Origin: a virus
IMG/VR virus record: IMGVR_UViG_3300020436_000100
Coordinates: 1-22,664 of that record
DNA: 22,664 bases
Reading direction: 5' to 3' (one strand)
Shown: positions 1,255-9,223 of the stretch, one piece after another
Numbering within the stretch: the stretch's first letter is position 1
Layout: each line of letters starts with the position of its first letter
Position numbers and translations under genes: made by a program
The notes under the pieces: model-generated
What the model was told of the DNA's origin: nothing
Database searches by the model: none
Seen by the model: the letters and a program-made list of their open reading frames with translations, nothing else

Positions 1255-1281
1255 GATAACCTCCTCAAAAAACACTTTTTG

Positions 1282-1324
1282 TGCGTTCCTTCGGTGTCAC
1301 CCTACTTCCGTCTCTTTCGAGATG
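1282..1324 (-). repeat. Leader element copy 2 (upstream of 21-aa gene)
   Basis: On the minus strand: CATCTCGAAAGAGACGG, a spacer, then ACACCGAAGGAACGCA, followed by the AGGAGG of the 21-aa gene. TCTC-GAAA-GAGA is a GNRA-capped hairpin. The motif order matches the copy at 1096-1130. Confidence 0.5.
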
Positions 1325-1332
1325 AACGAGAG

Positions 1333-6564: not shown

Positions 6565-7005
6565 TTAGTTTTGGTAGTAATCTTTTAGCATTTGTTTTGC
6601 AACTTGGCGAGCTTCTACTTCCCAAGGTGCGTTCCAATACTCTAAGCTATCAGTGTCTTGAAAATCGCCGGTGTAGTAATCGCCCAGCCAGTATACTTTT
6701 GTTTGGTTTACATCCTGCAAGTAGCCCAGGGCATACTGCACAACGTGTTGGAGTTCGTGGAACAGAGTTTCTACAATTTCTTGTTCATCTTGTGTGCCAT
6801 CAATATGCACGATAAACTTGGTATCAGCATCAACAGCAGAGCCTGGGGCATAAGGTGTCCCCACCAGTCGAATATCAACTTTGACATCGAGTTTATACAA
6901 ATTCAGCATCCAAAAAGCATGGTGAAAAGCACGACGTACAAGATGCCGTTTGCGCTTAGTCCATGTATTTTTTGCTTTTGTTATGTATTTTACTTTAGTC
7001 GTCAA
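6565..7005 (-). CDS. Zinc-metallopeptidase-like protein (HExxH)
   Basis: 146 aa with H83-E-L-Q-H87 in VETLFHELQHVVQYALGYL, the zincin motif where both His bind zinc and Glu is catalytic. E129 in APWEVEARQVAKQML is a good candidate for the third ligand. The length and the helix following the motif resemble SprT-like or phage-type zinc peptidases. The N-terminus is basic (TKAKNTWTKRKRHLVRRAF). The start is a TTG at 7005 with AAGG six bases upstream, overlapping the end of the 62-aa gene by 11 bases; the next in-frame ATG (residue 33) would delete a conserved-looking region. Substrate unknown. Confidence 0.75.
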   Translation of the reverse strand: MTTKVKYITKAKNTWTKRKRHLVRRAFHHAFWMLNLYKLDVKVDIRLVGTPYAPGSAVDADTKFIVHIDGTQDEQEIVETLFHELQHVVQYALGYLQDVNQTKVYWLGDYYTGDFQDTDSLEYWNAPWEVEARQVAKQMLKDYYQN

Positions 7006-7183
7006 GTTTTACCTTCTCCCGTAACCAAGTGTATAATTCGATTGCACCATCATCGTATCCGTTGGGGTACTCCTCCTCTGGAAGCAGACACCGTATAGTA
7101 TACAGGAATGCATCCAGCTTAGACATACCGTCCATACGCATACCTGCGTACAAGCTAAAGGCTTCAAATTGTACATCGTTCAT
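6995..7183 (-). CDS. 62-aa hypothetical protein
   Basis: ORF MNDVQFEAFSLYAGMRMDGM followed by SKLDAFLYTIRCLLPEEEYPNGYDDGAIELYTWLREKVKLDD. It is helical and acidic, with no membrane segment. CGGAGGACTATGC precedes the ATG, a very good ribosome-binding site. First gene behind the consensus promoter at 7210-7238; it overlaps the metallopeptidase start by 11 bases, so the two probably are expressed together. No family recognised. Confidence 0.7.
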   Translation of the reverse strand: MNDVQFEAFSLYAGMRMDGMSKLDAFLYTIRCLLPEEEYPNGYDDGAIELYTWLREKVKLDD

Positions 7184-7209
7184 GCATAGTCCTCCGATTT
7201 ATGGTAACT

Positions 7210-7238
7210 ATTATACTAAAGTTTGGGCAAGTTGTCAA
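7210..7238 (-). promoter_or_regulatory. Consensus sigma70 promoter for 7183-to-6565 operon
   Basis: Minus strand TTGACA, 17-base spacer, TATAAT, full consensus. It marks the left edge of the AT-rich sequence before GC content rises. Confidence 0.9.
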
Positions 7239-7286
7239 CACTTTTTTCCGGATTGGTCGCCAGGCAGACGCTGACGAATTCCGGGG

Positions 7287-7296
7287 GGCCGCGCAC
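7287..7296. repeat. Direct repeat GGCCGCGCAC, left copy
   Basis: GGCCGCGCAC followed by CTCAC a few bases on. The same ten bases followed by TTCAC recur at 9408-9417, at the other edge of the GC-rich island. Confidence 0.4.
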
Positions 7297-7306
7297 GACC
7301 TCACCG

Positions 7307-7411
7307 TGTCAAGGATTATTTTGTCCAATTGTGGCAAATTTTCTCGAATTATCTTACCGTAAGTGCCCGCAATTTGTCAATATGCACAAAAACCCAAAAT
7401 AATCCTTGACA
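7307..7411. repeat. 105-bp inverted repeat with -35 boxes at its tips
   Basis: TGTCAAGGATTATTTTG (7307-7323) and its exact complement CAAAATAATCCTTGACA (7395-7411) are 17-bp arms around a 71-base spacer. The dyad centre (7359) falls on a smaller palindrome CTTAC-C-GTAAG (7353-7363). Each arm ends in an outward-facing TTGACA. The right TTGACA has a good -10 box (7430-7435); the left one faces GC-rich sequence with no -10. The stretch 7184-7659 contains no convincing gene. Confidence 0.8.
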
Positions 7412-7435
7412 ACCCCGCCTGGGTTATGATATAAT
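7406..7435 (+). promoter_or_regulatory. Sigma70-type promoter with operator-like dyad
   Basis: TTGACA, 18-base spacer, TATAAT. CCTGG (7419-7423) and CCAGG (7438-7442) form an inverted repeat spanning the -10, a typical repressor-operator position. The same arrangement (CCCGCCTGGG, TATGATA, CCAGG) recurs near 9351-9375. It fires rightward, toward the convergent leftward operon. Confidence 0.7.
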
Positions 7436-7514
7436 ACCAGGGTTGGGCACGGGGTCCAGGCCAACAAAGACACGCGCGCATAAAAATAATTTGGGGCACA
7501 CCCGCAAAAAAGAC

Positions 7515-7543
7515 TTGACATTTCTCGCTTTTGCACTTATAAT
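7515..7543 (+). promoter_or_regulatory. Consensus sigma70 promoter reading antisense to the GC-rich operon
   Basis: TTGACA, 17-base spacer, TATAAT. Predicted start about 7550. No plus-strand gene with a good ribosome-binding site follows; the RNA would pass a 14-bp CG palindrome, the parS-like site and then run antisense to the 32-aa and 168-aa genes. Confidence 0.75.
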
Positions 7544-7585
7544 GGCGCAGGCACCACCAAAGAAAATCGTCGTCGAACTACTACT

Positions 7586-7599
7586 GGCGCGGCCGCGCC
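7586..7599. repeat. 14-bp perfect palindrome GGCGCGGCCGCGCC
   Basis: Exact self-complementary sequence about 40 bases downstream of the 7515-7543 promoter. Could be a protein-binding site or an RNA hairpin stopping the short rightward transcript. The 12-bp core GCGCGGCCGCGC recurs exactly at 9404-9415. Confidence 0.6.
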
Positions 7600-7642
7600 G
7601 ACGGGGTCATGTCAAGCGCGGTGATCGCCTCCCGGCTGGAGC

Positions 7643-7660
7643 GTGTTCCACGTGGAACAC
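7643..7660. promoter_or_regulatory. parS: parS-like centromere site (perfect 18-bp palindrome)
   Basis: GTGTTCCACGTGGAACAC is a perfect palindrome. Its 16-bp core TGTTCCACGTGGAACA (7644-7659) matches the chromosomal parS consensus TGTTnCACGTGnAACA, in the form with C and G at the variable positions. parS is the loading site for the CTP-dependent clamp ParB, which segregates bacterial chromosomes and recruits SMC. No ParA or ParB gene is visible here, so a host protein would have to bind it. The site sits at the very end of the GC-rich operon; its last base is part of the stop codon of the 32-aa gene. Confidence 0.75.
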
Positions 7661-7758
7661 TAGCGGAGCAAGTAATACAACGCCGCGCCCCAGATTGCCA
7701 AATCAGTCACCACCGAATAGATAAGGTAGGCGGCGGCGAGCGCCGCACCAAATCTCAC
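7660..7758 (-). CDS. 32-aa membrane peptide
   Basis: GTG-start ORF MRFGAALAAAYLIYSVVTDL followed by AIWGAALYYLLR. The start overlaps the TGA of the 168-aa gene (GTGA), typical coupling. Two hydrophobic stretches (residues 4-16 and 21-31) are broken by TDL. The AAAYLIYSVV.D..IWG..LYYL pattern resembles a very short membrane protein that recurs in marine phages; its function is not known. The stop codon touches the parS-like palindrome. Confidence 0.6.
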   Translation of the reverse strand: MRFGAALAAAYLIYSVVTDLAIWGAALYYLLR

Positions 7759-8261
7759 GCCGTCACCTCAGAGTATACGCGAGGAAGCGGAACGCCGTGG
7801 ATTTTTTTGTCGCGTTTGTGGGCGACAATCTCAGCGCCGAGTTCCAGATTTCGCTTGCGATACGAATTAGTGAAACGGGCAAGCGCAGTTTTTTGATCGC
7901 AGAAATAAAATTCTGATTTGCCCCCAACCTCCAGCCACCGCTTGTCGTACAGCATCGCCTTGTCATCGCGGTTGCGAGCGTGAACAAATTGCTCTGCCGC
8001 CAGCACCTCATCATTTTCACCCAGCTTCATGCGCCATACGCGAGCGTGAAGTTCGCCGCGACCGTAGCCGAACGCGTCCTCAACATCCCGCAAGCACCAC
8101 ATCACGCGCTCGTATCCACCGTGTCGCCCGTTGGAATACGCGTGACACGCATATCCGTTTTTGAAAGTGCCAAACTCCAGCAGTTCCCAAACGTAGTGCC
8201 ACGCCATGCCGTCAATCGGGGTGATCTCAGGTGCAGTGTCAGTTGAACGTAAAATAATCAT
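7755..8261 (-). CDS. 168-aa hypothetical protein of the GC-rich island
   Basis: Begins MIILRSTDTAPEITPIDGMAW, followed by HYVWELLEFGTFKNGYACHAYSNGRHGGYERVMWCLRDVEDAFGYGRG and a C-terminal basic region (TNSYRKRNLELGAEIVAHKRDKKIHGVPLPRVYSE). It is mixed alpha/beta with many aromatic residues and scattered His and Cys, but no catalytic motif that I can name. The start overlaps the HAD stop (TAATG) with GAGGG nearby. GC-rich codons contrast with genes outside the island. Unknown function; position next to a HAD phosphatase suggests a metabolic or nucleic-acid-processing pair, a weak inference. Confidence 0.75.
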   Translation of the reverse strand: MIILRSTDTAPEITPIDGMAWHYVWELLEFGTFKNGYACHAYSNGRHGGYERVMWCLRDVEDAFGYGRGELHARVWRMKLGENDEVLAAEQFVHARNRDDKAMLYDKRWLEVGGKSEFYFCDQKTALARFTNSYRKRNLELGAEIVAHKRDKKIHGVPLPRVYSEVTA

Positions 8262-8731
8262 TAAGCGGCCCTCGCGTTGATTTCCAGTGCATTATAGCAT
8301 TTCAGACCGTTAGCGGTCAACAGTTCGATGACAGATTGATTGTCATCCATCATAACGGAGAATTGACAAAAGCGCCGCCATGAATACGTTTTAGTCGCGG
8401 CATAGTTTCGCAATGCGCGCAGTTTTAGTAGAGCATCGGGGGTGCGGTCACCAAGAGTGCGCGACAGCATACCGTGCCATTTTAGACCATGCTCCGCCAG
8501 AAAGCGGTAATCATGCTCACCCATAACGCGAGCAGTGCAGACCACAATTTCAGCGCCGCGAGCATATTGAATCCGCCAATGTTTGGCAAGCGGTAGCAAT
8601 CGATCACGCGCGATTTTTTCGGGCGTGTTGTTTTCGATCCAGTGAGACAGATCAAGGGAGCCGTCAGCAGTGGTGAGCTGACGGTGTGACGAGTCGATCA
8701 CGGTGTGATCTAGATCATATATAAAGCGCAT
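8261..8731 (-). CDS. HAD-superfamily phosphatase
   Basis: 156 aa with all four HAD motifs: motif I Y-D6-L-D8-H-T10 (nucleophile D6 and acid/base D8), motif II VVC-T66-A-R, motif III Lys about K103, and motif IV MM-D129-D130-N. The compact cap region (WIENNTPEKIARDRLLPLAKHW) and the MRF[IV]YDLD.T start resemble phage 5'(3')-deoxynucleotidase or polynucleotide 3'-phosphatase-type HADs. Substrate is therefore probably a phosphorylated nucleotide or DNA/RNA end. Start: GGATATACAT before the ATG, overlapping the preceding membrane-protein gene by 17 bases. Confidence 0.85.
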   Translation of the reverse strand: MRFIYDLDHTVIDSSHRQLTTADGSLDLSHWIENNTPEKIARDRLLPLAKHWRIQYARGAEIVVCTARVMGEHDYRFLAEHGLKWHGMLSRTLGDRTPDALLKLRALRNYAATKTYSWRRFCQFSVMMDDNQSVIELLTANGLKCYNALEINARAA

Positions 8732-8915
8732 ATGTATATCCTATAATTCCAGCCAGATTCAAGAATACCAGATTGTATGCCCGAATGTCAAGCGCCTGCA
8801 CCGTTAATAATACCAATCCACCGATCGCGGCGGTCTTGCCCGCGTCGGTGTCGATTGCGAAAGGAGCGAGTGCCATGCACACCGCCCCGCACCATCCGAT
8901 GATCGGGGAGATCAT
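8715..8915 (-). CDS. 66-aa two- or three-span membrane protein
   Basis: Begins MISPIIGWCGAVCMALAPFA, then IDTDAGKTAAIGGLVLLTVQALDIRAYNLVFLNLAGIIGYTYALYI. Hydrophobic helices at about 3-20, 30-45 and 48-65. This W.GA.C...AP.......G.....G...L..Q....R..N..L..LN..G..GY.Y is typical of small membrane proteins in marine phages that resemble SemiSWEET/CBU_0592-type folds; no function can be assigned. ATGA overlap with the HTH paralog C stop implies coupling. Confidence 0.7.
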   Translation of the reverse strand: MISPIIGWCGAVCMALAPFAIDTDAGKTAAIGGLVLLTVQALDIRAYNLVFLNLAGIIGYTYALYI

Positions 8916-9223
8916 CGAATAGACGCCAGCAAGCCGGACAAAGCGCGAGCAGTCGCTTTCTCGAGTCCCTCGAGATCGCTCGCATCCGCGTCGAGCGCCT
9001 TGGCAATAGCGGCGACATAATCCGCTTTGCTGGTAGCGCGTGTCCCCTTGACAGGGCGAGCCGCCGCCTGATACGGCAAACCGAGTGAGCCGATCTTGGC
9101 GATCACGCTCCGCTTGGATTGACCGAGCTGGTCAGCGAGTTGACCGGCAATCTCACCATTGAGAGTGCCGAATTTCTGAGCCGCGTTCTGCAGTGCGGCT
9201 ACCTGCTTATCAGTGTATGGCAT
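8912..9223 (-). CDS. HTH-like DNA-binding protein, paralog C (GC-rich)
   Basis: 103 aa, MPYTDKQVAALQNAAQKFGT..., with core AGQLADQLGQSKRSVIAKIGSLGLPYQ, a basic linker, then SKADYVAAIAKALDADASDLEGLEKATARALSGLL. It aligns with paralogs A and B across the whole length (YT..QV, LA..[LF].[KQ]S.RSVI.K...LG[LI], I...LG/LD, LEGLEKA..). Composition is strongly GC/Ala-rich, unlike A and B, so it likely came from another phage lineage rather than by recent duplication. CGGAGGCACT precedes the ATG. First gene of the island operon, controlled by the promoter and operator at 9265-9307. Confidence 0.8.
   Translation of the reverse strand: MPYTDKQVAALQNAAQKFGTLNGEIAGQLADQLGQSKRSVIAKIGSLGLPYQAAARPVKGTRATSKADYVAAIAKALDADASDLEGLEKATARALSGLLASIR

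Follow-up and report, generated by a model that had tools for sequence, protein, structure and literature searches.

The DNA analysed here, a stretch of 22,664 bases from the IMG/VR virus record IMGVR_UViG_3300020436_000100 (the window), is a fragment, 22.7 kb out of a genome of roughly 100 kb. It contains a leftward operon with small and unassigned genes, the features of which are listed in Table 1 together with the promoters around its end. The TAG stop codon (7662-7660) of the last ORF directly abuts a 16-bp core, the distance between stop and site being 0. This core lies within the sequence GTGTTCCACGTGGAACAC at window positions 7643-7660, which is a perfect palindrome of 18 bp and the longest perfect palindrome of the window. 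The 168-aa protein encoded in the operon had no match in Pfam or PHROG.

Table 1. Features at the end of the leftward operon and in its surroundings (window positions).
Feature	Position	Strand	Basis
Perfect sigma-70 promoter of the next leftward operon (7183 and below)	7210..7238	-	
Second, tandem perfect sigma-70 promoter, TTGACA-18-TATAAT, also directed at the parS-type site	7406..7435	+	
Perfect sigma-70 promoter, TTGACA-17-TATAAT, directed at the parS-type site about 100 bp away	7515..7543	+	
Palindrome GGCGCGGCCGCGCC between promoter array and parS-type site	7586..7599	no strand	conserved in relatives
parS-type site, perfect 16-bp palindrome TGTTCCACGTGGAACA	7644..7659	no strand	identity to P. 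putida/P. aeruginosa parS; footprint in relatives
Membrane-like ORF of 32 aa (MRFGAALAAAYLIYSVVTDLAIWGAALYYLLR), last gene of the leftward operon	7660..7758	-	read from sequence
168-aa protein, function unassigned, marker gene for finding the family	7755..8261	-	homologues 31-86% identical in relatives
HAD/PNKP-type polynucleotide phosphatase, operon marker gene	8261..8731	-	PHROG 415, E 2e-16; PF25109 below cut-off; 80 relatives
66-aa ORF of the same operon, kept in relatives	8715..8915	-	
Small DNA-binding-type protein, first gene of the operon	8912..9223	-	PHROG 1725, E 1e-7

The first-pass annotation of the window had described an exact 18-bp palindrome with a 16-bp core corresponding to the chromosomal parS consensus, and this held letter for letter: the 16-bp chromosome-type consensus tGTTnCACGTGnAACa is matched exactly at 7644-7659. 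The 16-mer is listed as parS of Pseudomonas putida (PMC7022226, Table 1, where the consensus is also found), and parS2 and parS3 of P. aeruginosa have the same sequence, are bound by ParB in vivo according to ChIP-seq, and allow spreading over more than 20 kb (PMC5098823). In the window it is present in a single copy, and the next-best match has 3 mismatches. The annotation had also called the palindrome very unlikely by chance. This holds for the exact 16-mer, for which 4e-6 occurrences are expected in the window from its base composition; any perfect 18-bp palindrome is expected about 0.11 times in 22.7 kb, so that the palindrome as such is not very rare.

No close relatives of the window at the DNA level were found in the phage collection used. 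Family relatives were first found through two marker genes, which yielded 14 contigs. The long ones (G003, 94.6 kb; G006, 101 kb) share about 50% identity with Pectobacterium phage My1 in the large terminase subunit, and about 44% with Demerecviridae of Aeromonas and Vibrio in the DNA polymerase. Based on this Demerecviridae-like terminase and polymerase, we infer that the family belongs to a T5-like group, probably of marine Gammaproteobacteria; its genome size of approximately 95-101 kb is a further likeness to Demerecviridae. The host is not known, and the presence of the exact 16-mer also in genomes of Bacteroidota, Acidobacteriota and Planctomycetota speaks against a clear host call. Unlike the family, the T5-like cultured phages which we checked do not contain the consensus site: Pectobacterium My1 and Vibrio 70E37.1 show nothing within 1 mismatch of GTTNCACGTGNAAC, and the matches in Aeromonas vB_AdhS_TS3 and Vibrio Achelous are all off-consensus, with 1 mismatch. 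Two other features of this putatively T5-like phage were recorded in passing. A glutamine riboswitch (RF01739, 55.8 bits, window 1280-1330, minus strand) precedes an Hsp20 gene (653-1075), and a homologue of ribosomal protein S21 is encoded at 2262-2462 on the plus strand (PF01165, above cut-off).

The site is kept in the relatives. Exactly one copy is present in each of ten of the 14 close-relative contigs, and G009 has the site plus an additional match with 2 mismatches; two of the remaining three contigs end soon after the marker gene, while G005 is truly devoid of the site. A profile search extended the family to 80 loci, many of them on fragments, in which sites downstream were counted at up to 1 mismatch. 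The site was found in 45 of the 80 loci. Downstream sequence of 2.5 kb or more was available for 45 loci, of which 33 have the site. Conservation of the palindrome at the end of the same operon in related phages, a check proposed in the first-pass annotation, was thus confirmed. The other 12 of these 45 evaluable relatives lack the site, which is therefore not essential. The exact sequence GTTYCACGTGRAAC occurs in 38 of the 80 loci, compared to an average of 0.06 loci for 1259 permuted palindromes. Permuted palindromes which do not match parS again reach one locus at most, and those with higher counts are degenerate forms matching the same parS site.

To define the footprint, 40 non-identical sites were aligned by position only, after a search with a 14-bp pattern in which 1 mismatch was allowed anywhere. 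The outer T (35 of 40) and the outer A (39 of 40) were found to be conserved despite their absence from the search pattern, and beyond them only noise was seen on both sides. The conserved footprint is exactly the 16-bp parS core. Within it, only the C/T wobble and the central CpG vary, the 10 other core positions being invariant, and the changes thus fall mainly at positions that ParB tolerates. The genes preceding the site differ among relatives (a PPK2 gene, an unassigned ORF of 234-254 aa, or small ORFs) and the site remains in place, with no base between it and a stop codon in 15 of the 40 cases. Most genomes of the family have a single site, compared to up to six in Pseudomonas phages. 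Together, these data show that the site is a selected element which is kept on exactly the 16 parS positions. Among the neighbours of parS in long relatives we observed an IscU-type Fe-S scaffold gene (L165:1560-1940; 76-81% identical to three other phage records) and a gene for polyphosphate kinase 2 (L134:10608-11207).

A promoter array is also found next to the site. It is located at 7400-7550 in the window and at the same place in relatives; its promoters are approximately 90-100 bp apart and share similar spacer letters, and no clear gene lies downstream. They head into the site and run antisense to the operon. Near-perfect sigma-70 promoters directed at the site, one to five within 500 bp, were found in 33 of the 36 family loci with enough sequence. 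In these 36 loci, 76 site-directed promoters were counted in 18 kb, compared to 9 in 54 kb of upstream sequence. The product of the array could be a short RNA, or the array could act as an insulating transcription barrier or as a transcription-primed origin; all three remain mere possibilities. No RNA family of Rfam was detected at the parS site, the riboswitch mentioned above being the only match in the window.

Is the site read by a protein of the phage itself? No ParB family of Pfam was detected among the 33 scanned ORFs of the window. Since the window is a fragment, this proves little; a stronger point is the absence of ParB_N (PF02195) from 14 relatives, including the contigs of 94.6 and 101 kb. 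ParB_N was also not found in 50 of 50 other IMG/VR contigs tested which carry the exact site, nor in 20 of 21 cultured parS-bearing phages. The exception is Stenotrophomonas phage BUCTxx99 (OR529408.1), with ParB_N in two adjacent ORFs at 34175-35064, about 15 kb from its single site. A ParA-type ATPase (AAA_31, PF13614) was not found above cut-off in six relatives and 14 cultured phages, and no integrase above cut-off was detected in the 20 genomes searched for it, among them six relatives. A phage-encoded ParB as the reader of the site was rejected on the absence of ParB_N from the 14 relatives, and a complete ParABS partition locus on the phage was rejected as well, as neither ParB (14 relatives) nor a ParA-type ATPase (20 genomes) was found. 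The suggestion that this is a phage genome without ParAB held for the window ORFs in the case of ParB, and for the long relatives.

The same 16-mer is not restricted to this family. It is present in at least 120 IMG/VR contigs, compared to 10 for a scrambled palindrome. With 18-letter queries against 50,697 cultured-phage records, the GTTCCAC type was found in 41 and 23 records and the GTTTCAC type in 198; two scrambled controls had no match. The GTTCCAC-type records lean strongly towards Pseudomonas phages, four of which had been isolated on P. putida KT2440, while the GTTTCAC type is found in phages of Gram-positives and Ruegeria. Published parS sequences of pseudomonads on the one hand, and of Gram-positives and alphaproteobacteria on the other, are split in the same manner between the half-sites GTTCCAC and GTTTCAC (PMC7022226). 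Several phages harbour clusters of sites: of the GTTCCAC type in SYP (six), ventosus (four), Ep020 (four exact and one variant) and vB_PpuM-Kassivere (three, near 60.3, 62.4 and 66.4 kb), and of the GTTTCAC type in phages of Ruegeria, Gordonia, Lactobacillus, Bacillus, Butyrivibrio and Glutamicibacter. When the site by which each genome was found was left out, none of the 16 further sites in five Pseudomonas phages was fully of the GTTTCAC type, and in six phages with hosts other than Pseudomonas all 11 were (Fisher p 8e-8; the test takes sites within one genome as independent, which may not hold). We conclude that the spelling of parS in phages follows the host group. Enterobacteriaceae have no chromosomal par genes (PMC7022226), which applies to Pasteurellaceae as well, and no phages of Escherichia or Salmonella are among the listed GTTCCAC-type records. 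Matches in Klebsiella phages are located inside annotated genes or in unannotated records, and many share one baseplate site of jumbo phages. It cannot be excluded that some database matches, such as the in-gene sites of Klebsiella jumbo phages and Listeria fragments, are due to chance or contamination.

In 21 genomes, 32 of 49 sites are located between genes, compared to 4.1 expected, and the contexts in cultured phages vary: sites are found near a lysozyme gene, next to the gene for the major head protein, or between convergent genes. In several genomes they are close to extrema of the GC skew. A linkage to the origin, striking by eye, is only suggestive and not claimed here, since a permutation test over 16 lineages gave a combined p of only 0.037. 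Two further groups of phages are worth mentioning. In a second group in IMG/VR (L029, L032, L045, L090, L095, L037, L104, L049, L071), parS is found at several different places in short gaps between late structural genes, and the terminase resembles those of Pelagibacter phage HTVC027P and of phage 023Pt_psg01. HTVC027P itself contains one exact GTTTCACGTGAAAC, and HTVC023P only off-consensus matches with 1 mismatch. The bajarodino viruses PQ006097.1, PQ006134.1 and PQ006149.1, small microvirus-like records of about 6 kb, have 10-12 match places each, which correspond to about five to six parS sites of the GTTTCAC type per record, as palindromes count twice.

Based on these observations, we consider it likely that the palindrome is a chromosome-type parS that serves as loading point for the ParB clamp of the host. 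Host ParB is proposed as the reader because the 16-bp footprint is that of parS, the wobble is of the ParB type, the spelling is matched to the host and no phage ParB was found. The identity of the site, selection on its 16 positions, its fixed place, the lack of ParB and ParA in the phages tested and, for phages of other hosts, the agreement of the spelling with the host are established; that host ParB truly binds the site in the infected cell is inferred, as is a benefit to the phage, and no binding data are available. According to this model, host ParB-CTP dimers would attach to the 16-mer, turn into closed clamps and move out over the neighbouring phage DNA, so that the phage genome would gain a ParB-coated patch like the one which the host makes beside its own origin. 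Host ParA and the SMC-type condensin could then position, compact or separate phage DNA during infection. The notion that a host-type parS may load host ParB-CTP clamps, put forward from sequence alone, is thus supported by conservation, footprint and absence of ParB_N, with binding still inferred. Among the outcomes proposed along with it (positioning, interference with segregation, blocked spreading), no single effect is settled. The selected consequence is undetermined, and any ranking is more speculative than the site itself: we place positioning, compaction or segregation first, silencing or timing of the promoter array second and sequestering of ParB last.

How does this compare to known systems? 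The chromosomal ParABS systems of P. putida and P. aeruginosa use the identical 16-mer with the same wobble (GTTCCAC or GTTTCAC half-sites), and several Pseudomonas phages hold clusters of three to six sites within about 10 kb. In contrast to the chromosomal systems, the phage site has no parAB nearby and is usually present in a single copy in the window's family, and a link to the origin is not shown. SGI1 (PMC10954446) is similarly a mobile element which has only a centromere and uses the ParB of another replicon, namely that of the parABS system of the IncC plasmid. Such mimicry implies a site matching the target specificity and no own ParB, and both apply here, given the host-matched spelling and the absence of ParB. 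However, SGI1 mimics a plasmid parS, whereas the phages mimic the chromosomal system of the host and, with no integrase above cut-off in the 20 genomes tested, appear to be lytic. Plasmid-prophages such as P1 and the extrachromosomal mycobacterial prophages (PMC7157519) also have parS-like sites on phage DNA, but they bring their own ParA and ParB for maintenance of the low-copy prophage, neither of which was found in the relatives of the window.

Several other explanations were considered. The one which survives best, and remains possible, is a promoter switch, in which spreading ParB clamps silence the neighbouring array and thereby provide timing or a carrier state. There is precedent for this: in test plasmids, spreading of ParB from parS shuts down promoters in its vicinity, and in P. 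aeruginosa ParB represses promoters at parS3 and parS4 (PMC4368675, PMC5521831). Conservation of the array beside the site in most evaluable family loci is also in line with this idea. Against it, the site is found in many different surroundings in cultured parS phages, so that silencing of one given promoter is not what they share.

A decoy function is unlikely in our view. Here host ParB would bind as proposed, but the selected effect would be titration of ParB off the chromosomal centromere, stalling segregation or division. In support, the parS mimics of SGI1 stabilise SGI1 and destabilise the helper plasmid (PMC10954446), any imbalance of ParA, ParB and parS in P. aeruginosa may trigger the SOS response (PMC5521831), and, with phage DNA present in many copies, even one site per genome would add up. 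On the other hand, a single site per genome is not much to titrate ParB with before the phage DNA is replicated, and ParB is dispensable in pseudomonads (PMC7022226), so that loss of segregation would be of little benefit to a lytic phage.

Still less probable is an operator, at which a phage-encoded repressor or activator recognising a parS-like palindrome would control the tandem promoters beside it. The conserved sigma-70 array about 100-300 bp from the site and pointing at it (with its excess over the threefold amount of upstream DNA), as well as the small DNA-binding-type proteins encoded in the same operon, are in favour of this possibility. However, unrelated phages that have neither these proteins nor the array also carry the 16-mer, the C/T wobble corresponds to the two ParB half-sites and the spelling follows the host group, while a phage operator is not expected to track the parS of the host. 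A repressor operator and a Noc-like site had been the alternatives in the first-pass annotation, and both fit less well in view of this recurrence and host-dependent spelling. The Noc consensus is ATTTCCCGGGAAAT; a Noc-binding site was rejected, as the sequence at the locus differs from it.

A transcription terminator hairpin, to which a perfect inverted repeat right after the last stop codon would point, can practically be discarded, since there is no T-run after the palindrome in the window and no terminator-like site in 6900-7900, a T-run follows the palindrome only in L145 among 10 aligned sites, and a terminator would not hold the same 16 letters. A chance palindrome is likewise as good as excluded: an arbitrary one of 18 bp is not a rare event, but the very low expectation for the exact 16-mer, its conservation in relatives and the permuted controls rule chance out.

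Returning to host ParB as the reader of the site, it is tempting to go one step further. On balance we lean, with reservation, towards the view that borrowing of the host centromere is a general phage strategy, by which phages of pseudomonads, other proteobacteria, actinobacteria and firmicutes carry one to several host-matched sites, mostly between genes and without ParB, and recruit ParB, ParA and condensin of the host. No report of host-type parS in phages without ParB was found in the open literature searched; preprints and most subscription papers were outside this search, so the novelty is provisional. ParABS is the main chromosome-sorting machine of bacteria, and little is known about the ways in which lytic phages position and condense their DNA inside the cell. 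Should phages that lack ParB indeed carry host-matched parS sites, the segregation apparatus of the host would be a resource that is exploited or attacked during infection. Last but not least, the spelling of parS (GTTCCAC or GTTTCAC type) may provide a sequence-based hint to the host group of a phage.
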